Shown piece by piece: positions 2,658 to 53,599 of a DNA stretch of 64,000 nucleotides (positions are counted from its first letter, which is position 1; every line of letters begins with the position of its first letter). The notes under the pieces are model-generated. The model saw only the letters and a program-made list of their open reading frames with translations. It did no database searches and was not told the DNA's origin. Both the position numbers and the translations under genes were made by a program. The stretch lies in NCBI GenBank assembly GCA_963678675.1, contig OY783198.1:26336684-26400683 (forward strand), in the 5' to 3' direction. This DNA is from Xiphydria camelus (taxonomy: Eukaryota > Arthropoda > Insecta > Hymenoptera > Xiphydriidae).

Positions 2658-2934
2658 ATGCTCGCCGCGTCGATCTGCCGCGAGGTGCACTTCGCCGTGT
2701 TGTCCTCCTCGATGTCCTCGCGCGTACCGCGTTGCCTCTTCGGGCCGGCGAACTCCAAGGACACCGTGGAGCTGCTGCAGGAGGCGCTGGACATGGAGCG
2801 GTCGAAGTTCGCGCGACGATGGGGCGTCGATCCGAGCTCGGAGGACAAGGAGAACATCCTGAAGAAGTGCGAGAGGGTGGAGCGATCGCCGAGGAAGAGG
2901 AGCCACCCTTACTCGAGGCAGACCAGTATTCACG
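2658..2934 (+). CDS. Gene A coding exon 1: Cip/Kip-family (p21/Dacapo-like) protein, cyclin-docking half
   Basis: First coding exon of a two-exon, 126-aa nuclear cyclin/CDK regulator of the Cip/Kip family. Residues 25-30 read RCLFGP, the RxLF cyclin-docking motif that opens the family's inhibitory domain. An amphipathic helix follows, and a tryptophan (W55) sits 28 residues after the docking leucine, the spacing I recall for human p21. The usual WNFDF strand is reduced to WGVD, and no PLEG..YEW segment or 3-10 helix follows, so CDK inhibition may be weak or lost. D63-KEN-I contains a KEN tripeptide (64-66), an APC/C degron motif. S77-PRKR combines a CDK phosphorylation consensus with a basic NLS-like patch. 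The exon ends RQTSIH plus one base before a perfect donor, G|GTGAGT. The 2658 start is preferred because a pyrimidine-rich stretch ending CTCAG (AG at 2638-2639) looks like a 5'-UTR splice acceptor 18 bases upstream. The frame is open upstream to a Met at 2460, but that extension shows no family similarity. Confidence 0.87.
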
Positions 2935-4104
2935 GTGAGTGACGAAAGCTTTTCGACTCTTCCACTCGATTGTGCAAACCTTTTCATTCGTCGAGTCACC
3001 GGAAACGCCGTCGAACGTCTCGTAAGGAATATTCCTTCCTCGCGCAGAGCCCTTACGGAAATGGAGATAGTTCGACGCGTCCGTATCGAGGTGTCTCGTC
3101 TTTCGTCGTTATCTCGCGTCGAGCTGCGGCGAGGAGAAACCGGCGCGGAGAAAGAAGTGATGCAAAGCGAACGCGAGCGCCGGGACACGTGGCACGCGGA
3201 GCTTCGAAGCGACCCGTTCCATTCCGTCCGCTTATCTCCCTGCCGGCTCTCGATTAACCTCTTCATCAAACGTCAGCTCTTTCCATTCCTCGAGGAAAAG
3301 GGAAGGAAAATATTGCGCGTCCGTAATCCCGCAGACTTCCGACTCCGAAGCCCCGTCGGAATCTCGCGCGATGTAATTATCTCCGAAATTCTTGGGCGCT
3401 CGCAAAAAATTATTTTTCTACTCGCGCGTAATTGTCGAGCAAAAAAGCCACGGCGCGCGATGACTGAGTGTTCGCGCGGCGGCGGAGCCGGAAGTGCCGG
3501 CGGGGCTCGGAGCAGCGCGGTGCGGTTTTGGCGGGAAACGCGGGACAACGGTCCTCCGCGTCGAACGGGTTGCCGGGGGCGCAGGCGCTGAGCCAGTAGT
3601 CGCGTGGCCCGAAACCTGTTTCGCATTATACGTCCCCTCCCTACCCCCTCTTCATTTGTCCCGCACTGCCTTTCTCCCTTCCACTGCCGCGTTGGCTCTC
3701 GTTGCGTCTCCCTCTCTCTCGCAGCCTCCTCTCGGCTTCTCGTTTTACACCTCGCCAAGAAGCTTTCGGTCGGGGCTACCGTTTCGTTCACGAAAACCCC
3801 TCGCGCGTCGTAACGAATGCTTTTTAATAGCGACCTGCCGACCGGCTCGTTCGTGGGCGAGTCTCGAGACGAAATACATACACGGCGGATAAAGGGAGAT
3901 GTATATTGCCGCTGTGGAAATGAAAATCTAACGAAGCGCGGAGGGGGTGTACGCGCGATGAAGGCCGGAGAAGAATAGGCAGGTTTCCGTCTCGGTTCGC
4001 GTGGTGCTGCGACGATGTCTAGGGAAGCAAAGGAGAGTTTTCGATCGGAACTTTTATTTTCAAAGTGATTACCTCTGTTTGTTTCGAGAAATACACGTGG
4101 GCAG

Positions 4105-4465
4105 GCTTATTCTTCTCCAAAAAGACAAATTTACGTAAATTATATAGTAACAATAGGCGGTATTGGCTCATCTGATGCATCAAAGTTGTGCGCTCAATGA
4201 GTCACATCACTGAGAAAGTATATTTGTATCACACACACATTAAATGCTTTCAAATACAAATAAAACGCTAAACATTTATTCAATATATGCGCAATTTTTC
4301 GTAAATATATTGCTACAATAAATACAGCGATTAATTTGAATCACATTATAGTTTAAATTTAACAATTTTTTGAAGAACAATTATTTTTCTAATTAAACGT
4401 TAACTTTAAAACAATCTGTAGCTTGCACGAGCGTCTTGACGATCACACAAGTCTATCTGGGTTCG
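4105..4465 (+). repeat. Dispersed repeat related to the 184-bp array of the gene C intron
   Basis: Diverged single copy. It shares blocks such as GGTATTGGCTCATCTGATGC, TAAACATTTATTCAATATAT, AATTTGAATCACATTATAG and ACGATCACACAAGTCTATCT with 44945-45896, in the same order and orientation. Confidence 0.85.
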
Positions 4466-5369
4466 GTCTACCACAAATACTAGCGGAGATTTGGGGAGGG
4501 CTGCCAATCGGAGAACTTTTCAGCGCGGTAGCATATTTTTCCACTCGCCCTCGCCTCGGGCGATTATCTCTGTTTGTTATTCGAGAGAGGTCGCGTCGCA
4601 TGGGTGCTTCGCTGCGGCGCGACTCTTTCCTTCGGTACCCCCGCAAGGGTTGCGATGACGCGTCACGGTTCGAGATCGCCGATCTACTCGTTCCGCTCGA
4701 GAGAACGATGTATTCGGAAGACTCGCGGTGCTTCCACATTTTTTTTATTCGACGTAATTAACTCCAGAATGCCATCCGACGGGCCATTGAATTTCATCGA
4801 TTTTTGCCCAGTCACGCCTGTGTCGAGTCTCCAGAAATTTCATCTCTCTTTCGAGAGCCGAGCAGCGCGCGCAGAGAGAGTGTACCTAACTTTGGAGCTT
4901 ATTTCGCGCCGCGCAAACGCCTTTGCTTTCCTTCGCCGATAGAAATAGCAATCAGGTCTGCAAGACCGAACGACGTGACGCAACTATCGCTACGCGGTGC
5001 AGGTTCGCGCGCGATCGGAAACTCGAGACCCGGTTCGGGCGCCTGAATGAATCACTCTCTCTCGCGTGAGTCACACGCGGGGCTCGCAAGGTACGCGCCG
5101 GGTAACCAAGGGCCTCTGACTCACGGAAGGGCTCGGTTCGCGACGCGGTCGGGGGGCCGATAGAGGAGCGTACGATCGCATTCTTCGAATTTTTCGAATG
5201 CTCGCCTCGCTCTCGCTATTATCGCCGTAAAAAAATGCGCGCGACTCGCCCTCGGTGAACTCGGGAGGACAACCGCGGCGCGACGCGACTTTTTATATCG
5301 CGACGGCAGATGAGTAGATCTCGATGCTTGCGCGCTGGATCGACCCATACATGGAGGAAAATAACATGG

Positions 5370-5823
5370 TTATACAGAGAACAAAAATAGTAGATCAGAC
5401 TAAACTGCCGGTCACGGGCGGGGGAACGCCGATTTGGTTAATCGAATTAAATAATTTGGTTGTAATGAGTTGAAATTATTTAACGAAAACGAGCTGTAGT
5501 CAAATCTGGCAAATTATTAATTCAAGTAACTTGATCCGCGCTCCCCCTCGCGTTATCGCTAATTTAGTCTGATCTACCATACTTTTTTCTCATTGTCAGT
5601 GCAGCACGATAAAACGTATGCAGCTAAAAGAATGTAGTTATTCCAACAAAAAAAAACCAGTAAGCTGAACCAAATATTTAGTAGTTCCGACTACATTTTT
5701 AGTTATTCCACCCGGAAAATAGTCGGTCCGACCAAGCAGATGGAGGATCCATTCTTGACCAAACGCTTTGGTCGTGATCTCCAAGATTTGGATTAAATTG
5801 ACCGGCTTATTTTTCTCAGAGTA
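5370..5823. mobile_element. MITE cluster: two adjacent or nested inverted-repeat elements
   Basis: At 5389-5580, GTAGATCAGACTAAA is repeated inverted as TTTAGTCTGATCTAC. At 5583-5821 lies a minus-strand copy of the MITE also found at 8669-8919, ending TTTTTCTCAGAG next to TA. The first may be inserted in the end of the second. Confidence 0.75.
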
Positions 5824-6260
5824 CTTATCACCTCAAATTCAGCGATCCGCGACACCCGGGGGTATTTCCCACCGCGAAACCCTTAAAAAGGCAGCGAACC
5901 GAAACAAAACACGAGACCCTCGACGACACCTGTCGACGTCGCGCGCGAACGCCAACGACTCCGAACGTCTTTTCCCACGATTAAAATCGGCGCGCCCCGG
6001 ACGGCACGCGATATGCTTCGTACCTACGCGCGCGCGCGGGGGACCTGCGTAAGGTCGGGCACCACCTGTTCGGTGGCGAGCTGATTGCGGCGGGGAACAC
6101 GGTCGGCTGTGTGCGGCGTCTCGCGCCGCGACCTTTATCGACTCGTCGGGGCACCGGGCTTGCGTCGTTCGTCCTTCCCGCTCTCGGACTTAACGGTTTA
6201 GAAAGTGAGCGTCGGAGAGAGACGCACACGGAATGGGCGATTACGCGAGTGGGAAGGTAT

Positions 6261-7001
6261 TTAAGGGGGGACATACAATTAGACCAAGGAAAAGCGAGGC
6301 AATTTTGAGGAATTTTTTTAACCAAGAAATATTTATTCTACATTCATCGCACTGAAGGTATTGTTTAATAGGGTATTCAAGTATGAAAAAAAATTTTTTC
6401 AATCCATTTGTCGTCAAAATGGCGGAGCTATGGTACAGAGTTACAGGTAGGTTGCGGCGCGACTTCCAAAACGGTGTACAACCTAGCTCCTCGTGAAATT
6501 CGATCTGCAACAAAATACAAACATTTTCTTATTTAAAACACGTGTAGTTTCTATGTGACGTTGAGAAAAGTCAAAAAAAAGGCAAATTTGACAAAACGGC
6601 ACGCAGTCAAAGACAAAAATCGAGTTTTCATGCAAAATTTCTTCAGAATTTGTATTAAAAAAATAGTTTTTTTCGAAATTTTCTGAAATCGGGCTTCGTC
6701 ATATAGAAGGTAATAATGTTACCAACATGTTTACCAAAGGGGAACTCAAGCGGTTCAATACTTTTTGCGTAATCGTGTACACCAGTTTCAGAAATGTAGT
6801 TTCGAGAAAAACGCGTTTAAAGTTTCGACACGTGTAAAACCAATGTTAAAACCACTTACCATTTTCGGGCTGTAACTTCCGGAGTTTTTCGAATTCCGCT
6901 TTCAAACTTTCAGAATATATTCTTCACATACAGGCCTATCGTTTAAAAATATAAAAAAAAAATCGATTTTTTCATCGGTGTAATTGTATGTCCCCCCTTA
7001 A
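6261..7001. mobile_element. TTAA-flanked non-autonomous element (piggyBac-type), 733 bp
   Basis: TTAA at 6261-6264 and 6998-7001 flank a perfect 17-bp terminal inverted repeat, GGGGGGACATACAATTA. No transposase frame is seen inside. TTAA target duplication is characteristic of piggyBac-type transposition; the G-run terminus is less typical, so the family is tentative. Confidence 0.85.
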
Positions 7002-7085
7002 TTGTGTGGGAGATCTTGGAGGTTGTATATATATATATGTGGGGTGGGAATTAGACAACGATTTTTCGGTCGATCTTTGAAAACT

Positions 7086-7306
7086 GCAGCGAGAAAACGG
7101 TTTATTTGCAGTTAGAAAATGTTTATTTGAGTATGCTGAGATAAATATTTTATTGGACCAAGTAACTATTCGACGATATCTATTTCGAACTGTTCGCGAA
7201 TGAAATAAAAATTTTAATAAATTCATGTATTTTTTTGGTCCCAATGAAATATTTATTTTACCATATTTGAAATTACATTTATGAACTATTAACAAACTAT
7301 TCTCTC
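7086..7306 (+). mobile_element. MITE, GAGAAAACGGTTTATTTG family, plus copy
   Basis: It begins GCGAGAAAACGGTTTATTTG and ends AACTATTCTCTCCG. It matches the reverse complement of 15788-16044 along its length, including a central TTTTGGTCC-like block. It lies directly beside the TTAA element. Confidence 0.7.
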
Positions 7307-7774
7307 CGTACGCCTATAAAAAAGCGCTATTAATCGAATAATTTCAATACTTTTCATTCGAATGTCTCTATTCCATCGGTATCGAACAATTCAATTATCC
7401 CTGAACAAGCATTTCCCTGAATCCCTTCGCAGAACGAGATCCTGCCTGCGCGAGTCCGCAGGAGGTGCGCGTCCTAAAAGCGTCCGCATCTCCGGTCGAG
7501 TCTCGCTCGAACCCGTCTTATCGCCGAAGAAATTCTTCGCCGTAATCTCATCCTCGAAAAGCGACGAGCAAAACGACGGTAACGGGGGAGGGTCGAGAGT
7601 TTTGCGCGTCGCGACAGAGAGAGACTCTACCGAGTCGCGGCGCACCGACCTTCTCTCGCTTTTTTCAGCGGACACTTTTATCCGATCGCGCTCGCAACGA
7701 CTGCCCCGAGGTCGAGCAGGATAAGACTCGTCGCTTCCCGCGGATCGCTCTCCCGCTCGGGCGTTTCAGGAATG

Positions 7775-7775
<1 letters not shown>

Positions 7776-7806
<31 letters not shown>
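7776..7806. repeat. CT microsatellite
   Basis: Uninterrupted CT dinucleotide run of about 15 units. Confidence 0.95.
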
Positions 7807-7812
<6 letters not shown>

Positions 7813-8250
7813 TTCAAGGCTCGCGCTTTTCTCCCCGTCGAACGCGATAATCTCACGGCGAGGCGCGCCGTAAAACGGCAATTTCGAGAGCAACACTCCG
7901 CCGGTGGAGCGAGAGAGCACTTTACGCGCTTTCCGAGAAGCCGAAGAATAGGAATATCGCCTATGCGCGTAACGTCCTTCAAAGATCCGATAGGGTAGTT
8001 GTCTGATTTTTTTTATCGATGATTCGAGAAATTCGAACAAAATTATCCACAAAAGTAGATCAATAATATGACTGCGTAGTCGTGTTAATTATATAAAAAA
8101 AAGGTTGGGGACATCTATCAAACATGCTGCAGGTTGACTTGGTTGCAGTAATCTTAATCTCGTATTACTGTAACCAGAATTGTATTATGTAGAACAATTA
8201 TCGAATCGCGGTTGGAGCTAAAATCGTCCACGATTTCTGGTGAAATTATA

Positions 8251-8481
8251 CTGGCCTCCTGAGCCAAACTGACGTAACTCAAAATTTACTCATTTTCATA
8301 TGTTTGTGGTTTCCAGCATTTCTATACGCAATCATCACATTTCCTCAGCGAAATAGGCATATCTTGTACTAGTTTCATAGGATTACATCCAAAAGCAGAT
8401 GAAAGAAAGAGATCAATTGCATAAAATGTTAGTTATCTCACAACAACCAAATATTATAGTCATTTTGGCTTAGGAGGGCAG
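8251..8481. mobile_element. Tc1/mariner-type MITE, 231 bp, TA target duplication
   Basis: The ends CTGGCCTCCTGAGCCAAA and TTTGGCTTAGGAGGGCAG are imperfect inverted repeats and are flanked by TA (8249-8250 and 8482-8483). There is no coding capacity. Confidence 0.85.
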
Positions 8482-8668
8482 TATAGCTCTTTCAACCAGA
8501 TTTTTCTCTGAGTGCGCGGTTCTCGGGGCGCGGTCCGCGTCGATTTTCCGTTTTTGCGCTTAATCTCCGTGCGGGAGGTGCTGTTCGGCGAACGGTGGCT
8601 CGTAATTGCGCGAGATTGGACGGAGGTAAAACTCGGGGTTGCAGGAGAGGAGTAGAAGTGCGCTTGTA

Positions 8669-8919
8669 CCCTGAGAAAGAAAATTGGTCAATTTAACAAA
8701 AATCTCGGGGATGATGATCAAACTGTTCGGTGAAATATGGATCTTCCATCTGTTTGGTTGAACCGATCATTTTTTTTTTTGGTTAAAATAACTAAACATC
8801 TAATTTGAGTAAATAAATATTTCGTTCAACTGACCAGTATTTTCGTTAGAATAACTCGACGCGTCAAGCTACATGCGTTTTGTCATTTTAGCCTGTATAA
8901 GTAATTATTTTTCTCAGTG
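8669..8919 (+). mobile_element. MITE with CTGAGAAA termini, TA-flanked
   Basis: It starts CCCTGAGAAAG and ends TTTTTCTCAGTG next to TA (8667-8668 and 8920-8921). It is homologous, in opposite orientation, to 5583-5821, for example in the block ATGGATCTTCCATCTG.TTGGT. Confidence 0.8.
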
Positions 8920-10021: not shown

Positions 10022-10496
10022 TTAACCCTTCGTTGCTCACGTGGAGTGTAGGCGACACTCCAGCCTCCTTTTTTTGCATGACACGCCTAGAGTTTTTTTT
10101 TTCGAGGTTGGCACTTTCAGTACCTTTCGAGAATATTTCATTACAGAATTGGACACCAAAAGCGCAAGACAAAACCGATTTGTTTATCCGACTGAACGCT
10201 GCATAGTGTTAAAAAGTGATTTTTAACAATCTGTAATTAACATAATATTTAATATTTTTCTATAAAACTTGTTCCAATTTGCTAATTTGTCCATCGTTAA
10301 TAAAACGAGAGTATGATAACTATCCTCAGCCTATTATTTATACTATTTTTTAATAAAAATCGGCAGGGAGATCTGAGCGAGTATTAAGAAATTTCAAATG
10401 TTTCACTAAGATAACGTTAATTTTTAACTGGGGTGTAGGGTACATCCCAGGTGATCTCTTATGTTTCAAAAATCCACGCGAGCAACGAAGGGTTAA
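10022..10496. mobile_element. piggyBac-type MITE, 467 bp, TTAA-flanked
   Basis: TTAA at 10022-10025 and 10493-10496 flanks CCCTTCGTTGCTCACGTGG and its inverted copy with one mismatch. TTAA followed by CCC is the canonical piggyBac end. There is no transposase frame. Confidence 0.9.
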
Positions 10497-12219: not shown

Positions 12220-12323
12220 ATTTCTGGCGCGCCCGCAAGGTCTGCGACGTCGGCAAGAAGCAGATAACGTCGGCGGAGGCGAAGAAGCAACAGAGCGTCG
12301 ATTCGTCGACGTCGTCGAAGTGA
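12220..12323 (+). CDS. Gene A coding exon 2: C-terminal PIP box, PCNA-binding tail
   Basis: Last exon of gene A. The acceptor is TTGCAG|A at 12219/12220. The split codon G+AT gives D93, so the joined tail reads RQTSIHDFWRARK. This matches the PCNA-interacting box of vertebrate p21 (QTSMTDFY) at Q88, I91, F94 and W95. A lysine lies four residues after the box (K99), as in CRL4-Cdt2 degrons, but the usual TD is HD, so degron activity is uncertain. The remaining tail is lysine-rich, then Ser/Thr-rich, ending SSTSSK-stop at 12321. The exon has no initiator methionine and is recognisable only through the splice. The motif is restored across a 9.3-kb intron with phase 1 on both sides, which is strong support for the model. 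Extra internal exons are possible but not needed. Confidence 0.87.
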
Positions 12324-13010: not shown

Positions 13011-14462
13011 CGAAGCGACGTTTCTGGTTTTCGATCGTCGTAACCCTTGCTTATTTTTCCCTTGAGATTAATCCTCGTAGTATCGATTTGCAATTGGAGC
13101 AATGGAGGAGAAAAGAAGTGAGCCGGAGCGCGGGCTGGAATTTTTTCTTGCCCTTGGCAGTGAGAATCCAGTAAAATTCGATTTTTGAAAAATCGAATTT
13201 TCACCGGGAGCAAAATTCGTCACGAAGGATTGACGACAATCGACGTAAGGTGGGTTATTGTGTTTTTTTAAAATTAATTTTTCAAAATTCTTCTATTAGA
13301 AAAATAAGGAATACTGCAGGGATGTTTTTTTATTATCAAAATATTCTACAAATCGAATTCTATTTTCTTTAAGATTCGTAAATTTTACTAATAATTTTCA
13401 GAATAAAATAGCTAAAACCGATCAACCCAAATATGCGATATTTTGCAATTCAACATCGACTAAACGTGCGCACTTGATATATTTTCGTTTGCACGAGATA
13501 TCGCGACGTATCGCCTCCTTTGCACAGTACTCTCGCCAGCAGCCTAAGTGGCGTTATTATCGTAATTAAATACAAAGTAGCGGTTACGAACTAGAAGTTT
13601 CCGAGGTAAATAGAAGCTATTTATCTTCGCGCGGAGGAGCATCGACCATGTAACGGCGCGCGATTCTGATATAGCCTCGAGCGCGCTCGAGAGCTCTGTA
13701 TCGCGTAGATCCCTCGGCGAACCGTGCATTACGTTTCCTCGTGGTTAACACCTAAATTGACCATTGTTCTCGATTTGCCATTGTCCGTTGCACCGGGCTC
13801 TTCCGCCTCGGGGAATGATATACGCGCTGTTAACGTTGCAGCCTGCATTTAGAAACATTTTTGAGTGCAGTGAAGCGGATAATCTTGAGTATTCTTGCTC
13901 GAATTATCGGCAGTGAGGTAAACTTTATACAGAATTAATAATTGAGTGGAATATTTCTGAACAATAAATGTGGAATCTTCAGTATCCGTTTAAAGAATTT
14001 TCTGAAATTGTTTACGTAGGTATACGAGGCAATGCGCTTTATGCTTCGGAATCCACGAATCTAGTGGCTGCCTATCGTCAGGCGCAGAGGGAGTCGATAG
14101 CGCCTGTGGAAGGCAACCACGAAATTCATCATGCTCCGAAGTGTGAAGCCAAAGTGATCTGAGCGGAACGCGTCGTATCGCGAGATCTTCTCTTAATCAA
14201 ATTTAGTATTTAATCTCGCGCGATCACTGTTCCCGCGAGAAACTCGTTTGCGAATTTCCGCCGTCCAGTCGTCACGTTGGCCGTAAAACTGCAGCGTGAC
14301 AATAATGCAGCGTATACATAGATAGGCAAATGCAGTCAGCGCGCGCGATTATATTAACGAGAAGATATACGGCGAGTCGTATCGTTTCAACCTCGTGCGA
14401 GGGACGCGTGCCTGGGCACTTGACAGGGTGAAAGGGCAGTCGTCACCGCGGGCTACCTCGTT

Positions 14463-14950
14463 ATTAACGACATCTATTACTCGTGGAAATATATAATTAC
14501 CGGTTGTACGTAATGAGTAAATTTATATTATCATCGAACCAAGGACTGACAAATCGTCTTCGTTATCCGCTAACCAAATCAATACTGCACTTTTGCAGAG
14601 GCAATAAACGCCACGTTTGACAAATTATTAACAGCACCCATTACTCGTGGAAACATATATTATAATTATCAGTTGTACGCGACGAGTACATTTTTGTTAT
14701 CATCGGACCAAGTACGAATAAAAACCATCTTCGTTATTTCCCAACCAAGTCGATTCACTTTTCCAAAGCAAATAAACGCCACGTTCGAACAATTATATTA
14801 ATAGCACCCATTACTCGTGGAAATACGTCATTATCAGTTGTACGCGACGAATACATTTTTCTTTGTCATCGGACCAAGGACGGATAAATCATCCTATCTC
14901 TTCCCAACCAAATCAATTCGCCCCTTTGCAGAGTCAACAGACGCCACGTT
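14463..14950. repeat. Tandem repeat, 164-170 bp unit, three copies
   Basis: ATTACTCGTGGAAA begins at 14476, 14640 and 14810. Each is followed by a TTGTACGCGACGAGTACATT-like block, ATCATCGGACCAAG and AATAAACGCCACGTT. Confidence 0.9.
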
Positions 14951-24280: not shown

Positions 24281-25390
24281 GTATCTATAATTTTTTAAAA
24301 TATGAAGATAATTTTTTCATGGCAAGAAATATTATATACATAAAAAAAGTTCATATAATGTGTTTTAAAATGGGTCCCAGTCTTCTGCCACTTAAAGGGT
24401 TAAAAGCGAGTCCCATCAGAGTTTCCTTCCCGAAGATCGTCCGTCAAAACACCATCCGCACTCGACCTGTTACCAAGCGGCGATCGAATTGCATTCGTGA
24501 CTCATCGATGACCGTATCGAATATGCATTCCTTATCGCGCGCAAGGCTACCGAGACCTCTTCGTACCGCGTTCGATTCGAAGTGTCTCGACAGACTCAGC
24601 CGATTTGTTTAGACGAGCGAGTCTTGCCTGAAGGACCCAACGTTTTCCTTATCTGGAATGGCAAACGTGTTTACCACCGTTGCTGCGGTAATTGTCGCCG
24701 ATATAATGTAACGACCATCGGAGACGATTTCCGCGCCGCGCATTCGCTTCTCTCGCGCGCGCGCGAAAGGCACGTGCGATTCTCTCCCCCCTCCCCTCCA
24801 CGCGTAGTAGTGTCGCGGTCGAGCTGGACGCTGCTGCGGCTCGATACGAGTCGAGCGCGTGCAGCGATTCCGCGTCAGATCGAAGCGTTTTACATTACAG
24901 CGTCGGTCTTCCTCTCCCTCGATTTCTCCTTTATCGATCGAGAAAAATCACGGAGAACCGTCACCTCGCCCCCGCTTATTCTCGTCGTTGACACTTCGGG
25001 TGTATCACCCCACGAGTGTAATCTATAAATAGTGCACCGCTGCGTTCGGCCTTACGTGCATATACCGAGCACGAGTCACGCGTGCAAGCGCATACACGAA
25101 TAGACGCACATGGATCGCAGCGGAGAATGCAGTTTAGTTGCGCGCACGTCGTTAGGTCCGGAGGAGCGCGTGCTCGTTCGCCGGCGGGAGGATCGGTGTG
25201 CGTTCGGGACGATCGACTCGCGACGAACGTTGATTCTCGTACGGCGGAGAATTTTTTTTTTTTAATAAGATCGGTTTTGTTCGACGAGTCGTCTCTCTTC
25301 CTGGAAGATTTTTTGTTTTCCGGTGCTGCCGAATAGACGGACTCTGTGCAGGAGACATGCTGGCTGCTAGGCACAGGTGAGACTGCGTAT

Positions 25391-30469: not shown

Positions 30470-30705
30470 TTTTCTTCTTTTTGTGTTCTTCATCTGCTTC
30501 TTCGTCTTCTTCTTCGTCTTCTTCTTCATCTTCTTCTTCGCATTCTTCTTTGTCTTAAACTTCCTCTTCACCTTCGTCTTCATTTTCCTCTTCATCTTCT
30601 TCTTCATCTTCCTCTTCATCATCTTCTTCATCTTCTTCTTCTTCTTCGTCTTCATTTTCCTCTTCATCTTCCTCTTCATCTTTTTCTTCATCTTCTCTCT
30701 CCTAC
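30470..30705. repeat. TTC/ATC-rich imperfect trinucleotide tract
   Basis: About 235 bases of CTTCTTC, CTTCATC and CTTCGTC units. The opposite strand reads as Lys/Met-rich and this strand as Phe/Val/Leu-rich, so frames here are compositional artefacts. Confidence 0.93.
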
Positions 30706-35832: not shown

Positions 35833-36767
35833 GAATGCACGGGCAGCATTTCAAATCACCGAGAAGAGATGCTGAAATTTTTACACGTACATACCGGGCA
35901 TACTTGTAAAAAAGCCATACACGTTTCAAAAAGATTTAAAACACCGTTTCCAAGAAAAGTAGATATATTTGAAGTCGGATTCTCTTACGCATAGGAGCTT
36001 GTGGCAAACGCTAGCAGAGAACCAGCTTTTACGTTCCCCTCTAATAGACACAGCTCCGAGAAAATTAGTAAGATCATACGTTCTTGATTCGAGAAACATT
36101 TTTTCGACGCTATAGGAACTATTCTCCTCGGTGTATTTCCTTCCACCAAATCCGCGATTTTATCCTCAACCGCGAGCGCGGCGACAATTTATTCCCGCGC
36201 GCGCTTGTATTTTCGCGCCGGCAAACCGGAAGTAGGATCCGCGCGTCCGCAACGGCACATCGACCGACAACGCGCTCGGTCGTTTCTCCTCCTCGCCGTC
36301 GTGTCACCGCCGTCCTCCTTCCTTCCGTCGACGATGTCTCCGCCCCCCCTTCCACCGCCGCCACGGCGTACACGCGCGTGCGACACACTGTTTACAAAAC
36401 ATAAAATCGCCCGTGTACGCCGCATGCGGCGGTATTAATTAGCATTAAGTACCGTACGACCGTGTGTCATTGGACAGGAATCATCCGCCGCACCGTGCGC
36501 CTTACATTGTTCTCTCGCGAGACGCGCTCGCCCCACGGATTTTATCACGCGGCGGTAAACCCGCAGAAATCGGGAACTCCCGTGGCGCGCGGATGCGATT
36601 ATGTATATTTACGTCCCACCCTGCATCGCCGGCAAACGCGGCGCGTGAGAACTCGGGCCTTCCCCGATTTTCTCTTCGCTGGGATCGTTCGATCGGACGA
36701 ACGTACTTTGTTTCTCCCGCGAGTAACGTCGCCCGCTTACGTTCGTATCTCCAGGGCGCGCCTGGCG

Positions 36768-36932
36768 ATGCAGGCCGGCGAGGGCGACGTGTCGGAGAGG
36801 CTGAGGTGCAGCAGGGTGCGCAGGAGGCTGTTCGTCGACGACAACGACGGCGAGACTCCCGATCGGGATCCCGGAATCGAGGACAACATCGTCAATCAAC
36901 TCTGCGAGGAAGCCAGGCGGAGCATGAGAGAG
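36768..36932 (+). CDS. Gene B coding exon 1: Cip/Kip-family inhibitor, N-terminal cyclin-docking part
   Basis: First coding exon (55 aa) of a predicted 132-aa Cip/Kip protein. Residues 18-22 read RRRLF, a strong RxLF cyclin-docking motif, although the usual LFG glycine is V. An acidic insertion of about 11 residues (DDNDGETPDRDPG) lengthens the loop before the helix NQLCEEARRSMRE. The end was placed at 36932 because joining to the next exon gives MREAKERWNFDF, which aligns without a gap to human p21 IQEARERWNFDF as I recall it. That requires a GC donor (GAG|GCGAGT), which matches the GC-AG intron consensus well. A GT donor that keeps frame would be GAA|GTTTTA, which is poor and inserts extra residues. 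If unspliced, the frame runs to a stop at 36984 and lacks the kinase-binding segment. A splice-acceptor-like sequence (TATCTCCAG, AG at 36753-36754) lies 13 bases before the ATG. A possible non-coding first exon ends near 32034 at a strong GTAAGT donor; that is speculative. Confidence 0.8.
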
Positions 36933-37257
36933 GCGAGTGCGATATTCGAGAGGAAGGGAATCGAAGTTTTACCGTATTTGCAATAAGAAAAGGTACACAC
37001 GAGGGTTTTTTCGAATTTTTTTCGACAGTGCGGTGCAATAATTCATCTTTTTGAAAGCACATTAAATCATAGGAATTTAAATTGCAATCTACTAGTTTCT
37101 AAGGAAAAATTGTTCTTTAATACCAGAGACATCCGAAAACCCTTGTGTGTGTACCACTTTTATTATACGAATACGATAAAATTTACTGGTATCAGATTTC
37201 CCGCGTTCCTTCTCCAATTTACAGATATTCTCACGCGTCGCTTTTCTCGATTGCCAG
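36933..37257 (+). other. Gene B intron, GC-AG type, containing a dispersed-repeat fragment
   Basis: This 325-bp intron interrupts the inhibitory domain just before KERWNFDF, where genes A and C have no intron. The 5' end is GCGAGT and the 3' end is TTGCCAG. Roughly 37085-37200 resembles sequence at 32425-32595 (shared blocks such as ACCACTTTTAT and TAAAATTTAC), in part in inverted orientation. Much of the intron is therefore repeat-derived. It also contains GT dinucleotides, so alternative donors cannot be excluded without RNA data. Confidence 0.65.
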
Positions 37258-37491
37258 GCGAAGGAACGATGGAATTTCGATTTTGAGAAGGACCAGCCGC
37301 TGTTCGGCCGCTACGAGTGGGTCAAAGTGGACAGGGATGGAAACGAGATTCGGGATCCGGCGACGAGCGACGAGAGGCGGGAAGGATTGGATGGAAACGA
37401 AGACGTGGAGGGGAAGGAGGAGCGCGTCGAGAGAGAGGAGGAGAAAGGAGGGAAGGAGGAACGCGAAGGGGAGAAGACTGACGATAATTAG
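37258..37491 (+). CDS. Gene B coding exon 2: CDK-binding WNFDF...YEW segment and charged tail
   Basis: Second coding exon (77 codons plus stop), in a frame with no methionine, so a simple ORF search misses it. It begins after TTGCCAG (AG at 37256-37257). Residues 56-79 carry AKERWNFDFEKD, then QPLFGRYEWVKV. This is the kinase-binding strand and hairpin of the Cip/Kip domain and is the best-conserved copy in the window: p27 has WNFDF...PLEG.YEW. The rest, from about residue 80, is very hydrophilic and Glu/Lys/Arg/Gly-rich, ending GEKTDDN-stop. I see no VP.PY/FYY 3-10 helix and no PIP box. Either this paralogue lacks them or another exon exists that I did not find. Without a PIP degron the protein should escape PCNA-coupled destruction; this is inference. 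No canonical AATAAA was found close downstream. Confidence 0.84.
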   Translation, partial: AKERWNFDFEKDQPLFGRYEWVKVDRDGNEIRDPATSDERREGLDGNEDVEGKEERVEREEEKGGKEEREGEKTDDN

Positions 37492-43680: not shown

Positions 43681-44220
43681 TCTCTCTCTCTTTCTCTGTA
43701 GTGAGCGGTAGAGAATCAGAGAAAGAGAGAGAGAGGGGGAGAAGCCGCGGGCTCTGGAAAGATTCAACTGGTCGCGCGCGCGTGCGCTCGCTCTCCACGG
43801 CTAGAGAGAAGCACGCGGAGCCCGCCTCTATCGCGCGGCCCTCGCTGATAGATTCCTGGAACCGACTACGTCGGCACGTTCTCGTCGCACCGTCGCTGGC
43901 CATCGTACGGAGAGAGAAACGCCGATGATCCGAAGGACCGCGCCGCTGGAGACGGATCTTTCGCGGGTGCGAAATTCAGGCCCGGCCACCCTAACCTGAC
44001 TTAACCGCGAGGCACGATCGCTCGCTCGCTCGCTCGCCCGGCGACCTTCCACCACTGCCGATCGAGGCCCCCGGAACTCGGTCCCGCCTTCCCCGCGAGA
44101 ACGGAGAACGGACCACGTTTCTTCCGCCGCCCTCCTTTGGCGCTTTTTGTCTCCTCGCGCGTGGCGAGGGGATCGAAGCCCACGAGAGCCGCTCTCCCCC
44201 AGCCCCGCAGTCGTCGAAAT

Positions 44221-44854
44221 ATGAGCGCGCGGGTGCTGAATCCTGTGATGATGACGGAAATGAGCCGCAATGTGGGGGGTGCTCGCGCGGTGCCTAGCAG
44301 AGCGGCCCTTGCGCGCGTCCGGAGGGACCTCTTCGGACCCGTGGACCACGCGGCGGCGCGGGCCCTCGCCGAGCGCGAGCTCCGCGCGCAGTCGCTGCTC
44401 GACGCCGAGAAATGGGGCTTCGACTTTCACCTGGGAGTACCGAAGGGCAACGCGCGCTACGACTGGGAGGTCGTGACTTCGTCGGACGTCGTACCCGAGC
44501 CGTACGCGCTGCGGGGGATGCCGTACTTGCGCAAGCACGCGCCGGGCACGCCCAGGAAGTCGAGAACGTCGTCGTCGTCGTCGCCGCCGCGCCTGGAGAC
44601 ACCGACAGTAGCGGTGGTGACGTCGCGCGTGGAGACACCGACGGTGGCGGCGGTGACGTCGCTGAAGACGGAGAGGACGCCGCCGCAGGAGACGCGAGTG
44701 CCCGAAATAGGAGCGCACAGCGGGGAGACCACGCCGGAGAACCACGCGTCCGTCGCGACGCCGCCCAACGGACTCAAGAAGAAGAAGTGCATAGTCGAGG
44801 GTCCCACCACGCCGGTGCTTCCACCCGCGACGAGGAAACAGTCTTCCATTACGG
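44221..44854 (+). CDS. dap: Gene C coding exon 1: dacapo-type Cip/Kip CDK inhibitor, full inhibitory domain
   Basis: First coding exon of a 244-aa Cip/Kip inhibitor, the best dacapo candidate. By family function it binds and inhibits Cyclin E/Cdk2-type complexes to drive cell-cycle exit. Residues 34-42 read RRDLFGPVD (RxLF cyclin docking). The helix runs AARALAERELRAQSLL, then EKWGFDF at 64-69, RYDWEVV at 79-85 and VPEPYALRGMPYLRKH at 91-106, the region that in p27 inserts into the kinase cleft. The middle is a low-complexity Ser/Thr/Pro linker with an imperfect duplication (ETPTVAxVTS near 127-136 and 138-147) and many TP sites that could be CDK targets. L185-KKKK is a basic NLS-like patch. 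The exon ends RKQSSIT plus one base at a good donor, G|GTAAGC. The ATG has A at -3 and lies 10 bases after an acceptor-like CCCCGCAG (AG at 44209-44210). The open frame continues upstream to 44137, but with no family similarity. Confidence 0.95.
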
Positions 44855-44944
44855 GTAAGCGGAAATTTTGCGCTTCTCGCGCATTTCTCGTTATTTTCGT
44901 CGCACGACGAGCGACGGAGCGCTTTCTCGTAGTTTTCCGGGTAG

Positions 44945-45896
44945 ACGAATAAATGTACGTAAATTCTGTAGGAGCTTTGGGTAGTATTGGCTCGTCAGAT
45001 GCATCAAGGTTGTACGCTTTATGAGTCATTAGACAGGCGTATCGGTGACATCAAATGGTTTCAAAATAATACAAATAAAATGCTAAACGTTTACTCAATA
45101 TAAGCACAATTTTTTGGTAAATACCCAGATAGACAAATATACGTAAATTGTATAGCAACTCAAGGTAGTATTGGCTCGTCAGATGCATCAAGGTTGTACG
45201 CTTTATGAGTCATTAAACAAGCATATCGGTGACATCAAATGGTTTCAAAATAATACAAAAATAATGCTAAACGTTTACTCGATATAAATACATTTTTTTT
45301 GTAAATACCAAAACAGACAAATATACGTAAATTGTACAGCAACTCTAAGTAGTGTTAACTCATCAGATACGTCAAAGATGTACGGCTTTGAGTCATCGTT
45401 AGGTAAGCGTATTTGTGCCATTAAATGATTTAAAGTTAATACAAGTAAAATGCTAGACATTTATTCAATATATACACAATTTCTTGTAAAAATGTTGCTA
45501 CAATAAGTACAGCAATTCATTTGAATCGCACTGTGCCTAATTTAAATTTAACCATTTTTTGGAGAATTATTATTTTTTCAAATTCATGAGGCAAAACAAG
45601 TATAAGCTTTAGAATGATCAATTATTGGAGCAAGCATATTTGTGCCATTAAATGATTTTAAATTAGTACAGATGAAATGCTACATTTATTCAATATATAT
45701 ACAATTTTTTGTAAATATATTACTACAATAAATACAGCAAATTATTTGAATCACACTATAATTTAAATTTAACAATTTATTTAAAAATATATTTTTTTTC
45801 AAATTCATAAGGCAAAACAATCGTAAGCTTTAGAACGATCAATTAGTGAAGTTTGTATGAAGGTCGTGACGATCATACAAGTCTATTTGGGTGGGC
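44945..45896 (+). repeat. 184-bp tandem repeat plus diverged tail
   Basis: GTAGTATTGGCTCGTCAGAT begins at 44981 and 45165, and a diverged copy begins at 45349; each step is exactly 184 bases. Further diverged partial units follow. The array ends in the same terminal block as the single copy at 4105-4465 (GACGATCATACAAGTCTATT), suggesting a mobile repeat whose 5' part amplified in place. Confidence 0.9.
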
Positions 45897-48800
45897 TTGC
45901 GAAAGAGCGGGCGTGCTCCCGAAAGGATTAATATTTCGCGCTGCATAGATTTATCCTTCCCTTTGCAATCGACACGAAAATAGGGACGATATTCACAGAT
46001 AATCTAAAAATCCGATAACCATGTGACTCGTGTATCGTGCGAACGATTTCGCGAACCGCGGAACAAAGGACGGAATTCCTCGCGACATTCCGAGAAAAAT
46101 TCTTTTCGCCCCGTCAAAAGGATTCCTCTCGCGCGGAGCGTAAACAGAATTCCTCTTCCCGCAAAGATAATAACCGTTCGCCGCTGTTGTAATTGCTATC
46201 TGTTCGCCGCGAGCGGATTTCCGTTGTTGTTGTAATAAATAAAAAATCACCCGCGGGTGGATCCTCGTTTCGACGAATAAAAGAAATTCCGCTCTGCTCG
46301 AATCGAGTCTACGTACGATTTTTCCACAATTTCTTCCGTTCTTGCTTCGATGATACTCCTCGCACTCGTTATAAAATCACTGTCAATTTCTTGTAAATTT
46401 CTGTCAATTTCAATAAAAGGGCGAAGCTCGATTCACGTCCCCGAGTGCCATGCGCTCAGGCATCCGTTGCAATAGGTCACTCCCCCCCCCCCCCCCCCCA
46501 ATAAAGTAAACCCGATAATTAGATGATTCACGCGAGCGACTCTGCGAAGCGGGGGAAGAACAAAGAATTCGTTATAATCGGTGCGCCTATTACGTCGTCC
46601 GTATATTTTTCTGCCGTCCTTCGCAATGGTGTCAATTTCACTTTCGATAACAAAGTCAGAGGGTCGCCCGATCGCGAAACTCTGCGAACCAATCGCCCAT
46701 TAGGTATGCGCCTTCCGTCCACCGGCCGTATACGGATCGGGTGGCGTAAATGAATTTGTCTACGCTACTACGGGCTCGCGATACCGCTTTACCGTCGCGC
46801 ATATCTGGTGGACTCCGACGACGGGCAGTCTACGCTCTCCTCCGTGTTTCTCGCGCGCGGTGAACCGGAAGACAGTTACATGCGTTTCGCCCCACCCACG
46901 GATTTCGGTATAAGCGTCGCGACGAGCGGGCGGGAGACGCCGCTGTAGGTCAATCCAATTCGACGATTGAAACAGTCGTCGCTGGCAATTTAAAATTCAC
47001 TGTTTACGGGGTCGTTGCAATTGAAGCGACTACTCATCCGGGAATGCTGTCGCTTGTGGTCTCTCTCGCCGCTGTCGGAAGATTGCAGCTGTGCGTCGCA
47101 TCGTTGCCGCTTGAGACCTTAATACGAGGAGGAGAAGGGCGAGCTACACATATAAGAGGTCCGGACGCAAAACCTTCGCGGTCGAAATTCCTTTTTGGCT
47201 GGCCTTCGCTCGCGCACATTCCTGCACTTCCGGCGTGTTCCTTCTGCGGTGTTTCTGCTCAATTCGGCTCCAATTAAAGCAGGGGGTCGGGAGGTGGACG
47301 AGCCCATCCCTTTTGCAGATTTTTCTTCGTTCGACATTCCTGCATTTCCCGCGCATTCTCGGTAAAATTCGGAGTAATCGAATAGAATTTTTTTTATCAC
47401 GATTATATGCTACTTTTTATCACTACCGTCACGTGTCGATATCGCCGCCACGCGAAACGAACGCTCGGAGAAACCGAGGCGAAAAAATAAGCTACATAAC
47501 AAAAATAAAAACGACACGCGAGCCGATAAAACTAGCGAATCCCGCTCCTCCCTCCTCCGTCGCCGCTGACCCGCTCGCCTCTTTTTTTTGCCTCCCCCGA
47601 CTCATTAGGCCTCTTTGTTTATATTTATACCTTTTGCGCGAACGGCCATCTTGCCACCCCATAGTTTCCGGTCCTTTTATTATTGTTCTACGCGCACACC
47701 TCCCACGCGAGATGCGACTATTTCTGGACGTGACGTCGCATGGCGTTCCCCCCCGGCTTGTGTACAGTACACGTATACGCGCGCCGTGCACGCGCTCCTA
47801 TGCGCGTGGCGGCCGCAGCGGCGAACGACGATCCCTCGTGTTTACGATTTCGCGCTCGAATCGCGCGGTTGTGCAGCAGTCGCCTTTCGCGCGCGTCCGT
47901 CGGGTCGGCCGCGTCGATGGCAACGGCTCGGAGGCCTCGTTCGCGACCTTGATGCACCTCGAGTAGAGCGGGAGAGAAATCGCGGTTCGAGAGGTGAATT
48001 TCCTTGCGAGAAAAATACTCGGATGTATCTCGAATATGGGATTCGCAGGGCTCCCGTTTGGCCATTCTTTTCGTTAGTCAGAAAAAAGTCATTGTTATTT
48101 TTAAAAAAGTCACTGAAAATTATTATTTTTAAGATTCTATTCCTTAACTCGTCACATTATTTCACAATACCTTCCCGCCGCTAGAACGCTGCAATATATT
48201 CGTATGAATTCTTAGTGTCGAGGTGGTCACGCTATCAGTGCCCAGATTCTGTAAATCATAACGATTTATGATGGCGCGTGACAAGTATTCGGTGTTATAT
48301 CGTTGCGAGTGTTACTCGTGATATGAGAAAAGGTTTTTTTTTGAGGTATTTGTTCGTTGATGAGTGATGTAATCTGTTATCTTCCATACTTCACAATTTC
48401 GTTGTGTTCTTATGAAAATAAGTTATTTCGATTACTAATCTCAATCACTTTATTTCAATGTTATTTCCTCAAAACTGCCAAATCTATCAGAAATCCCATT
48501 AGACCGCTTTTTCTTCTTCGCCCTTCGTAATGTTAGAACGAGGAAAAATTGGTCATTTTTTTTCCCAAAAAAGGTGCCATAAAAACCCACTATTTTGGAA
48601 CATCCAACTGGACGGGAGCCCTGAATTCGTATATGAGATTTTATCGGGCTCGAATCAACGTACAAATTAGCGATCGCAAACAAAATTACGTTGATTATTA
48701 GTCCTAACTCAAAAATAATTGCGGCTCGGAGAGACTGGCGGTTGCCTCTTCAACAGTACCTCCACTGTTCTTCGACCTCGTCGATTATACACGCGGGACG

Positions 48801-51800
48801 CGTCCAAACGTTACATACGAATTATTGCACGGTTCGCACGCGCGAATTGGACGCAGAGTCGAGTCTGCGGTGATGTGTCTCGAATACAATCGCTTCCATT
48901 TTTTTTTCATCGATCCATCGGGACAGTCGTCGCGACTGTTTAAAGTCCTCAGGAAAAAGAAATATGCATACAACATCCCCCCCAATGGGTTAAACGCTCG
49001 ACGGTGTAGTTAAAAGTAGCCGGTCGTAACTCTTATGACACAGTACCTTCACTGTTACTTGACCGCGATAGTTATGCATATGGAACATCCTCCTCTACGT
49101 TGAATTACACGCTTCGCGCGCGCGCATCGGATAAACCTACCAGGATGCCGCCTGAAATTCATTTAAAATACAATCGCCCCCCCGTGCGCGATATTAATCC
49201 GCCCGCGGTGCTTCGCGTGCTCGGATCCATTAGCGCTTAGTAATATAAAAATGCTGAAATCCGTCTCGGGGGGCAATTTTGAAACCGGACGTCGGTAGGT
49301 GTAACCCGCGAATTAAAGTTCTCGAGTAGCGTGGACCAAATACGGATGACGATACGTTTTCCCCGAAATGCTTGACAGGGATGAAACGCAGACCGATTAA
49401 TTCGTAAATCAGAAAACCTTTCGCGACGCCCGTAAAAGCTCAACGTTTTTCCGTTGAACGAGTGAAACGGAAAGTAACAGTACGCGCCATCGGTCCCTTT
49501 AAAGGGGGTACGCGTCGAGGGGATAGGGGCGCGGGGAGAGCTTTTCGTAACGTACTTTATTAATGAGAACCTGGTCAGCTGTTCGAGTCCCATATGGGGC
49601 CGGCGGCGTCACCCTCGTTCGCCCTCGTATTTCCCTCCCCTCTTCCCCTGCTTTGCCGCCTCACGAGAGAGAGAGAGAGTTTGCACGCGTAACAACCCCC
49701 CCATGGGGGTATCAGCCGTGCGCGCGCGCGCGCGCGCGACGCGTCGTATCGGTGTAGGATTTTTAGGAGAATGGTCGCGCGCAACCCTACGGGGGGTGCG
49801 CCATCAAAAATCAGAAACGAATTAAAGCCCCTCGCGCGCGCGCGCACGTGTGTGTGTGTGTGCACCACCTATGCAAGCGCATCGCGGAGATTCGATGCTT
49901 ATCTGGACACCGGGGGGAGGCGATTTAAACGGCGGGACGAGGAGAGCTTTAAATGGTCTTCGTTTGATCGCGATCACTTGTCGCGCGTCTTTCAGTCCCT
50001 CGTAAAAATGCATCTCGCGAGGATCAACGTCCTCGGAGGAGACCTTACCGTGTTCGGACGTCCTGGGATGTGTCTTTGGCCGCCGGAAGAGTGTCCCGGT
50101 TTGCAGATCGATTCGTCGTGGCGGTAGCGCTTCTGCAATCGATAGTTACGGTAGATCTCGCTCGTCGGTGCGTCGACCCGCGAGGCATAGGCTCGATTCA
50201 CCGTAAAAGAGCGGTACTTCGTTCTCTTCTTTTCCTCGTCGAGATTCACGGAATACGATGAATACGGGATGCGATGGCCATTTCAATTTCCGTATATCCG
50301 CTCGTGTTTCAGCGTAGTCCGAAATTTGCTTTCGCATCCTTTCATCGAAATTGCGATTATTTTCACTAAGTTTTCCTTCTACAAAAACTCATAAATTCTC
50401 TCCCTGTGGCTCTATGCGGACGCGCCGAAGGGGGCGGTAGGGATGCCGACGACCGGCGCGGGGAAATCCGCAAGGGTTGGGAACCGAACAGATGCGCTCG
50501 GCTACCCGTGCGCGGAATCAACGTCGACGCGCCGACGAATCGCAGGGGGTGGTAGGGATTGTCCCTGGTTACCGGTGGTTGGTCCGCCCGCCACGTTCGC
50601 GACACGTGACCGTTGCGCGCCTCCGCCGTTTGCCGTGTGAGTCACGCCGCGGGACCAGCGCTCGTTTGTATGCGCGCGCGTGCTATAATAGCGAAGTGCA
50701 TTGCACGGTGCCCGGGGGGGCGCTTACAAAGAGACCTCCTCCCCCACCGACGCGTCGCGATCGGCCCGCCGATTCTGCCCCTCCGCGCGTACCGCGTATT
50801 TTCAACGAGCGCTGGACCCGCGCTTCGGCGTTCCCGGCCACACGCCGCCGGATGTTTACCGTTGCCTCTCGCGCGCGGAGCCTCGCTCCTAGCCGTCGGA
50901 CAGAGCGGGGCGCATCGCGCGCGCGCGCTCGCAAAGTAACTCGTACACCGGCGTCGTTGCGAATTTTATCGATCGATCCCCGGCCGATTCTCCCCCCCCG
51001 AGGACTGGCGCGCGCGTATCTTCGACAAACGCTGGACACAATCGCGCTCTATATATCGCGCCGCGCGCGCGCGCGCCAGATGTTCACCGTTGCCCATCGA
51101 CGCACTGCTTGTGTACGCCGAGAATCTGCAGCGGCGCGTCGCCGATCTTCACGCCGGCAGAAAACATGTTTTTCGCCGGCGAACGGAGGGAACGCGACCG
51201 CGATAACCTTGACTCGGTAATTTTCTGGTGGAAAATAACAAAACCGTCCTGGTTGCGTGATTTTCGCGAGCGAGAAGGGGCGGCGAAGCTCCGGGTAATC
51301 TCGAGGAACGGACGTAATTATAATCGTGTGTCCTGTGAGAATTTCGTTCCCGAGTGCCATGGTAGCTTCGCCGGAAATTAATATTTAGCGTGATTTCGGC
51401 GATACTTTCGCGCCCGGCCGTTTTTCGAAACTTGGTGCGAATTTACAGAAAAACTCTTCGAGGTAAAAACATCTTCGAGGATCCGGAGAACGTAGCCGCG
51501 ACTAAATAACTCCATCGACCGTTCTCGTGCAGTTTTCGAATCTGGGTGTGCGCAATTAAAGTCGAATTAGCCGTAGGGCCCCGAGCCCCCGCCGTTTGAC
51601 CTCCGGGCGAAAAGTATTTGACGATCGACGCGAGCTTTATCGCGCGGATTGACCCCCGCGCGAACGCATATCGCACATACGTGCGTGCCGCGACCGTTAC
51701 CGTACGGCTTATCTGCCGGAGATTTCGCGTGCAGCAATAAACGCGCGTATCGTGCCGTGCAGGTCTTGCGCGAGGTCAAGCAACGACGGCTGCAGCAGAA

Positions 51801-52341
51801 GCAAGTAGCCGGCCGCGATGCGACGCGGTTTGACAAATCGCCTCGGATGATAAGCGCGTGGGAGGAGTGTCGAATTTATCGCGAGGGTCCGTCTCGGTGG
51901 TAGCCGCAAGGTCGTGCATCGATACGCCGCGTGAGACTTTTTTCTTCCGTAGGATTTTCTAAAAAATCGCGATCCCTCGTGGATCGAGCGTGCGAAACTG
52001 TTACGCCGTTTCGATGCACGGATTGCACATTTGGGTCGCCTCGCTCGAGTAGGCCGTGACTGACAGCCTCAGCCGCTTCCACGGAGGTACACGAGTGTGA
52101 GGTCACGGCGTACAAGGCGGAGTACCTCGCGGCGGTAGCGCGCTGGTATATAAGAGATAGAGATGCGCTGCCGCGTCGTCGGCGCTTACGTGCTCCGCCG
52201 TTGTGCCGGGGAAAAATACGCCCGGCTCCGGCAGTGCGTTTAGACTCGTGTTTCTGGAGAGGCGAGCGTGGAAATTCGTATCGCAAAGATATCGGAGCTA
52301 CTTTGTCTTTCGGGGAAGTTTACTGTGCAACGCTAAACTTA

Positions 52342-52926
52342 GGCCGCGGACACACTATTGTCACGTCACGTGAACTCACGCGATAGCACGTAGCATGGGA
52401 CAATAAAATCGCCGATATCTTAACCCATTTGTTTCGCGTGACGTGACGGCAGTATGTCTCTGATGGATTTGAATATATCGTCGGTCTTATCGCGTAAGGG
52501 CGTGTCTCGGAAAATTTGAAAATTGAGTTAAGACCGCCAATAGGTGGCTTAAGCCTTATATTTTCATCTTACGACCCGGCGTACCTCAACATTTTATACT
52601 TTTGCTATTCCCCGTGTATTTTTTTCGTCGTATCTCAAAATAATCAAAATTTAAATCTCACGTATAGGCGTAACTTAGGATAGGCCCGTACGTGTGATTT
52701 AAAAGGCATCGGGCGCATAATTTTATACATAAAAAAAATCACCAAGCTATACAAATAATTGGAGAACTTATTCACAATGAAAAATCGTGAAATATTTAAA
52801 ATCGCTCTCCTGAGAAGTCATCAAGACTGAGATACGATCGACGACGTGATAAAATATTAAATTACATTCTTCGAGCGTCCCGTGAACTCGTGAGCTCACG
52901 TGACGTGACAATAGTGTGTCCCCGGC
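52342..52926. mobile_element. MITE with about 35-bp GC-rich ends
   Basis: GGCCGCGGACACACTATTGT with CACGTCACGTGA is mirrored by TCACGTGACGTGACAATAGT and GTGTCCCCGGC. It directly abuts a fold-back repeat, suggesting a nested insertion. Confidence 0.87.
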
Positions 52927-53089
52927 TTTACTCGCATCTCATTACCTATAAGCTACTGGCTCATATTTGTATAATACTTTTTTGAAGATTATGTTTCAAT
53001 CTACAAGAAAGTCTTATAACGATACAGGCCAAAAATTCATCGATAATGAGATAATAGCGATTTGAGTTTCTTTTCTAGCCGAGTAAGTT
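52927..53089. mobile_element. Fold-back repeat, copy 4 (5' truncated)
   Basis: It lacks the first arm block (about 15 bases) present in copies 1 and 3, and ends CTAGCCGAGTAAGTT. The truncation falls at the junction with the 52342-52926 element. Confidence 0.75.
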
Positions 53090-53109
53090 TAGCCTCGTAT
53101 GGTATACCT

Positions 53110-53324
53110 GCTCTCGGCGTCACGGATTCTGTCGCTGGTGACTTTTTAAAATGTGATTTTTAAGCATACCAGCCGATCAAAAATTAATTCTCATGTTCTC
53201 ACCAGCTACGGCAACATTTGCCCTGGTTAATGAAAGCATGAGAATTGATCGATCATTGATTAGTACGTCAAAAAATGACATTTTAAAAAGTCACCTGCAA
53301 ACAAAATCCGTAACGCCGGAAGTA
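53110..53324. mobile_element. MITE, CTCGGCGTCACGGATT family, copy 1
   Basis: CTCTCGGCGTCACGGATTCT and the inverted AAAATCCGTAACGCCGGAAG end the element. It is homologous to 59557-59890 and lies 175 bases before the gene C terminal exon. Confidence 0.82.
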
Positions 53325-53498
53325 CGACGGAGTTCGAATTGTAGGAAAAACCTCGAGATTGTAAAATTCGAAAATCGAAATACGCTGTTAATCGGCACGA
53401 ATAATATTTAAAAATGCATGTATTTCGAACGTGCAGAACGCGTCGAATTCGTAACCCGAGCAACGCGCCTGACGTACGCTTTCCGTTTCCTGTTGCAG

Positions 53499-53599
53499 AC
53501 TTCATGAAGAGCCGCAAGCGCTCGCTGAGCGGCTCCCCGAAGAGCATGGTGGAACCGCCGGAGAAGATCGCGCGCAACGCGGGACAGATACGCAGCTAA
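53499..53599 (+). CDS. dap: Gene C coding exon 2: PIP-box/degron tail
   Basis: Terminal exon of gene C. The acceptor is TTGCAG|AC, with AG at 53497-53498. The split codon G+AC gives D212, restoring QSSITDFMKSRKR (Q207 to R219). This fits the PIP degron pattern Q..I-TD-F-(hydrophobic) with a basic residue at +4 (K218). TD is intact here, unlike in gene A, but the second aromatic is Met. The tail continues SLSGSPKSM and ends GQIRS-stop. The basic cluster KSRKR may also serve as part of an NLS. The expected behaviour is PCNA-dependent ubiquitination in S phase, as described for p21 and Drosophila Dacapo; activity of this particular motif is inference. The intron lies in the same codon and phase as in gene A. 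Confidence 0.93.

Follow-up and report, generated by a model that had tools for sequence, protein, structure and literature searches.

A cluster of three genes of Cip/Kip descent in Xiphydria camelus and other Hymenoptera, with the modules of a CDK inhibitor probably divided among them

A 64-kb stretch of the Xiphydria camelus genome (contig OY783198.1; "the window" hereafter, meaning the whole stretch analysed) contains three plus-strand genes descended from the Cip/Kip family of cyclin-dependent kinase (CDK) inhibitors, here called A, B and C, clustered within 51 kb. Their gene models were predicted from the sequence and from the proteins of relatives. Gene A has two coding exons. The first (2658–2934) encodes RCLFG, a linker helix, RWGVDP, SPRKR and the start of a PCNA-interacting protein (PIP) box, and ends at a phase-1 donor, GTGAGT. 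The second (12220–12323), entered at a CAG acceptor after a pyrimidine tract, completes the PIP box and reaches a stop, for a predicted protein of 126 residues. It ranked at the top of 13 second-exon candidates in one listing for A and C, and the same tail is found in relatives. Gene C, the Dacapo orthologue, also has two coding exons and a predicted protein of 244 residues. Exon 1 (44221–44854, with the start corrected to 44221) encodes RDLFG, a linker, WGFDF..YDW, VPEPY and TPPQE up to a phase-1 donor, GTAAGC, inside the PIP box; exon 2 (53499–53599) carries the rest of the PIP box and the stop.

Gene B has three coding exons and a predicted protein of 143 residues. A short first exon (25357–25376; MLAARH and two bases of R) was added to the model as a correction; it is common to several relatives, whose proteins start with the matching MLAARHRARL. 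Exon 2 (36755–36932) encodes RRLF, an acidic stretch and a predicted linker helix, and exon 3 (37258–37491) the CDK-binding hairpin WNFDF..YEW, an acidic tail and the stop, without a PIP box. The second intron (36933–37257) is of the rare GC-AG type, with GAG followed by the donor GCGAGT. Splicing over this donor joins RE to AKERWNFDF, and relatives have an equal number of residues there (EEARKNRENAKERW compared with EEARRSMREAKERW).

The preliminary description of this DNA had reported PIP boxes in two of the genes, and both are present, each across a splice: QTSIHDFWRARK in gene A spans 2934/12220 and QSSITDFMKSRKR in gene C spans 44854/53499. Both introns are phase-1 and fall after the first base of the PIP-box D codon. 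Relatives were counted at E≤0.01, giving 81 proteins for A, 16 for B and, for C, a list of 120 out of 148 proteins; the motif counts below cover all listed proteins, partial and unspliced ones included, and the search requires shared five-residue words, so that distant relatives in other insects may be missed. At the A/C intron site, 29 of the 81 A-type and 37 of the 120 listed C-type proteins continue as IHG.. or Q..ITG.., which we read as probable unspliced predictions entering a conserved intron.

The RxLF cyclin-docking motifs named earlier (RCLF, RRLF and RDLF) were found at 2730 in A (as RCLFG), 36822 in B and 44323 in C (as RDLFG), and the kinase-binding strands claimed for B and C are likewise present (WNFDF at 37270 and YEW at 37312 in B; WGFDF at 44413 and YDW at 44458 in C). 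In the window's stop-to-stop frames of at least 40 residues, W[NG]FDF occurred only twice, in B and C. RxLF alone is common, with 49 matches in the same frames, and the case for Cip/Kip genes therefore rests on domain scores rather than on motifs. Against the curated Pfam CDI cut-off of 25 bits (PF02234), the profile search proposed in the preliminary description placed B (48.2 bits, E 1.1e-12, profile positions 12–49 of 49, for a 132-residue model without the first exon) and C (48.0 bits, E 1.3e-12) above the line and A below it. Exon 1 of gene A alone (92 residues) scored 22.7 bits (E 1.1e-4, profile positions 1–37 of 49) and the full 126-residue protein 22.0 bits (E 1.7e-4); the match ends at RWGVDP, and the CDK-remodelling half of the domain is absent.

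A six-frame scan of the 357-Mb genome with PF02234 returned seven matches at E≤10. The top three were C (5e-11), B (4.8e-8) and A (0.038), and the fourth best had an E-value of 0.94. The same scan of control genomes gave sub-cut-off matches at E≤10 in 1 of 14, and the domain evidence for Cip/Kip descent exceeds chance. In protein searches of the genome, A matched nothing beyond its own two exons with a good E-value (the next match had 0.157), and B nothing beyond its two longer exons (next match, 9.09). On the evidence of these scans, the genome has no recognisable Cip/Kip gene other than A, B and C. The best matches of B (1.3e-6) and C (1.4e-5) in the PDB were human p27 chains, and comparison of family profiles linked A to C (E 1.2e-6) and B to C (E 3.6e-8).

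The three proteins keep different parts of the inhibitor. In gene C, the RxLF motif, CDK hairpin and plug tyrosine are present in order (RxLF, linker, WGFDF..YDW, VPEPY, PIP box). The RxLF motif was found in 118 of the 120 listed C proteins, 77/81 A and 15/16 B. The hairpin W.FDF..Y.W was present in 85/120 listed C and in all 16 B proteins, and in none of the 81 A-type proteins. PE.Y after the hairpin, equivalent to LPEFYY of p27, was seen in 80/120 listed C proteins and in no A (0/81) or B (0/16) relative; B has a polar stretch in place of the aromatic ATP plug. The PIP pattern occurred in 75/120 listed C, 46/81 A and 0/16 B proteins. The distance from the L of RxLF to the W was 28 residues, as in p27, in every measurable C (106/106) and A (76/76) protein, and 39 to 48 residues in the 15 measurable of 16 B proteins, a linker longer than that of p27.

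The PIP boxes themselves differ between A and C. In C, 68 of 75 show TD followed by a basic residue at position +4, which we take to be the Cdt2 degron form. Degradation of Dacapo is reported as mediated by CRL4 (PMC11763709). In A an H replaces the T and the tail is distinct, H-D/E-F/Y-W; upstream of the box, SPx[KR] was found in 60 of 77 readable A-type proteins (of 81) and a basic cluster in all 77. AlphaFold models gave a mean predicted local distance difference test score (pLDDT) of 65.0 for gene A exon 1, with a helix at 33–55 as the only confident part (block means 83, 91 and 86), and of 54.5 for a bee B protein, with a helix at 43–62 at low confidence.

The named relatives among the listed matches were all hymenopteran, apart from a leafhopper (Macrosteles) for C; names were read by eye, and many rows are nameless. 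When the window's A was aligned with 23 of its 81 relatives, 28 columns were invariant, from sawflies to bees, and all 24 proteins gave a CDI match at E≤0.01 (best 8e-6), an annotation already carried as PF02234 by 7 of the 81 A-type rows. The B relatives were 16 proteins from 9 named species, several of them isoforms, and the 16 aligned rows, some being isoforms of one species, shared 16 invariant columns including the WNFDF core. The public names of most A and B relatives are of the kind "uncharacterized", "histone H3.v1-like" or "UPF0329-like". Names that point to the family already exist for a few, as CDK-inhibitor-domain proteins, and for the Aphidius B, which is called CDK inhibitor 1-like. 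These relatives speak for A, B and C as real genes, as judged from conservation.

The cluster, whose conservation had been proposed for checking in related genomes, was recovered in several of them. Contigs of exactly equal size were taken as one contig, and by this measure A and a listed C lie together in 26 of 43 named A rows; the other 17 include short-contig assemblies and species without C among the matches listed. Likewise by equal contig size, B and C share a contig in 6 of the 9 named B species, and A, B and C together in 4 of the 9: Calliopsis, Nomia, Dinoponera and Aphidius. In Dinoponera the locus numbers are consecutive, LOC106749024 (C), -25 (A) and -26 (B). A and C also share a contig, by equal size, in the sawfly Neodiprion, and the A/C pair thus probably predates deep splits of Hymenoptera. 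Outside the window species, B was found in bees, in vespids and in a single ant and a single braconid only. Several chalcid and Leptopilina names appeared among the listed C matches and none among the A matches; in these insects A may have been lost, have diverged too far, or have been missed.

A gene tree, another of the proposed checks, was made from the CDI stretch of hand-picked rows (14 A, 8 B and 17 C from the match lists, the three window genes and human p27). A and B formed firm groups (100/100 and 100/98), and 17 hymenopteran C rows came together (96/88). The leafhopper Dacapo stood beside A (98/74), so that the C rows are not one group with leafhopper Dacapo. This tree is built on just 67 retained columns, brings long branches together and has a bootstrap that had not settled. 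When the A and C proteins of 17 species were joined for a second tree, the window lay nearest to Cephus by path, in an unresolved fork with Cephus and Orussus.

We believe, with a probability of roughly 0.7, that these genes represent an old hymenopteran cluster of three Cip/Kip descendants among which the modules of the inhibitor are divided, with C full, A retaining docking and PCNA binding, and B forming a clamp without the plug. The D1/RxL part of Cip/Kip proteins blocks substrate docking on the cyclin, the N-lobe of the CDK is remodelled by these proteins, and the ATP site is filled by a 3-10 helix together with Y88 (PMC6459857, PMC9279356). From the sequences we infer the following bindings and their effects. 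Gene C is an ordinary Dacapo/p27 orthologue; its protein would dock on the cyclin through RDLF, wrap the CDK N-lobe with the WGFDF..YDW hairpin, insert the VPEPY tyrosine into the ATP site as a plug, and bind PCNA through its degron-form PIP box. B, with RRLF docking and the hairpin and with neither plug nor PIP box, would clamp cyclin-CDK without fully closing the ATP site, and its role could be that of an assembly factor or of a weak inhibitor. A has retained the cyclin-docking motif, the linker helix and the PIP box; its CDK-binding strand breaks off at the first tryptophan, and all that would follow is absent. The protein may sit on the docking patch of the cyclin, where it would exclude other inhibitors or RxL substrates, and may link cyclin-CDK to PCNA while leaving catalysis running.

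Several observations weigh against this picture. Gene A lies under the Pfam cut-off by exon 1 as well as by whole protein. A profile of 24 A-type proteins matched no PDB chain at E≤1, and the single sequence of A matched only a bacterial protein there, at E 0.033 or worse. For these first two reasons, and because A is without the CDK-remodelling half, the label of CDK inhibitor is no more than putative for A, and its membership of the family is borderline. The profiles of A and B showed no direct similarity (E 0.41), as is expected if the halves they keep hardly overlap. The W.FDF pattern is missing in 34 of the 120 listed C proteins, and the AlphaFold models, being single chains mostly at low confidence, are not informative on complexes. 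The CDI-stretch tree, with its 67 columns, gives no order or date for the duplications. In human CDKN1A the PIP box is presumably split by an intron at this position too; if so, the A/C intron would be ancestral to the family and would not date the duplication, and sharing it would be a weaker argument that A and C arose by duplication. The intron itself, on which, with the clustering, the preliminary description had based that argument, is real and conserved. Its headline of three Cip/Kip CDK-inhibitor genes likewise holds in part: the genes are separate, clustered and of Cip/Kip descent, and inhibitor identity is putative for A.

That the genes are separate bears on a reading in which A exon 1 and C exon 1 are alternative first exons of one gene, both joining exon 2 at 53499. 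The two donors share phase and place in the PIP box, lie on the same strand and have compatible frames. We nevertheless regard this as very unlikely, since the exon 2 that belongs to A, at 12220, has a good acceptor and encodes the distinct tail (a PIP pattern of that form occurs in 46/81 A-type proteins), A and C are separate public loci elsewhere, as in Cephus (LOC107266958 for A and LOC107266889 for C), and B, with its own start and stop, sits between them. A reading of A and B as Dacapo duplicates in the course of decay is slightly less probable still. Parts of the domain are absent from each; however, the same parts are absent in relatives (the hairpin in A, PE.Y and the PIP box in B), while the invariant columns of both families persist.

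A more serious rival concerns A alone. It may be a docked CDK substrate and PCNA adaptor and no inhibitor, bringing cyclin-CDK to PCNA and being phosphorylated at SPx[KR] before the PIP box. The frequency of SPx[KR] in A proteins, together with the basic cluster and the absence of the CDK-binding hairpin in 81/81, gives this role its weight. On the other side, SPx[KR] is absent in 17/77, and docking alone can block RxL substrates (PMC6459857), so that A may still inhibit. We consider the substrate role possible and well short of probable. Equally tentative is the proposal that A belongs to a class new in function, a cyclin-PCNA adaptor that derives from the CDI domain and lacks the parts that inhibit the kinase, within a three-gene hymenopteran Dacapo cluster that divides one inhibitor's modules. 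If this were true, A and Dacapo would be rivals for PCNA and for the cyclin patch, and a descendant of the inhibitor would restrain or time the inhibitor, for example in endocycling tissues.

Other features were noted in and around these genes. In gene C, a TPPQ peptide (44677–44688) is kept in 112/120 listed C proteins and could be a CDK phosphosite or degron. A 36-bp unit in about 2 copies (44588–44662) in the same exon encodes a repeated ETPTVA.VTS peptide, in a region whose length varies among relatives. Opposite this exon, the minus strand holds a 388-residue stop-to-stop frame (43828–44994), which most likely arises incidentally from the GC-rich coding sequence. Just inside the gene C intron, 44951–45845 contains a pair of tandem arrays that overlap (184 bp x 2.9 and 221 bp x 2.0); further arrays lie at 451–748 (62/125 bp), 14461–14950 (about 165 bp) and 30486–30696 (TTC-type). 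Rfam and tRNA scans of the window gave no matches.

The family is known and the genes are already in public databases; what is new, and ordinary in kind, is the hymenopteran trio with its clear, testable division of modules. No description of such a trio was found in the titles and abstract starts of the open-licence PMC papers listed by the literature searches, which is no proof of absence, and two honey-bee papers either treat Dacapo as a single gene or refer to it from work on Drosophila (PMC5289437, PMC9548569). Should the Hymenoptera indeed possess three divergent members, Dacapo alone would be an insufficient guide to polyploidy and cell-cycle exit in bees, ants and wasps. The cluster would also offer a natural dissection of the p27 domain, with docking without remodelling in A and remodelling without the ATP plug in B, each conserved between distant species.

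Among known systems, gene C is like Dacapo of Drosophila and its insect orthologues, and many of its matches are named dacapo or CDK inhibitor 1. Flies, the insect model, have a single Dacapo gene, compared with which two further clustered members are present here. Human p27 (CDKN1B) and p21 (CDKN1A) have RxLF, linker, W.FDF..Y.W and aromatic plug as in gene C, and p21 carries a PIP box, as C does. The vertebrate Cip/Kip paralogues are dispersed in the genome, unlike the cluster described here. They each have the 3-10 helix (PMC9279356), whereas A and B are without it. In cestodes, a second CDI paralogue (cki-1/cki-2) is retained through most of a clade, and the available portion of that report describes neither a cluster nor a split of modules (PMC12693960). 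C. elegans has two Cip/Kip genes, cki-1 and cki-2, whose consecutive names T05A6.1 and T05A6.2 (PMC1482691) suggest that they are presumably neighbours; that pair differs from the hymenopteran cluster in having two genes, presumably from an independent duplication.

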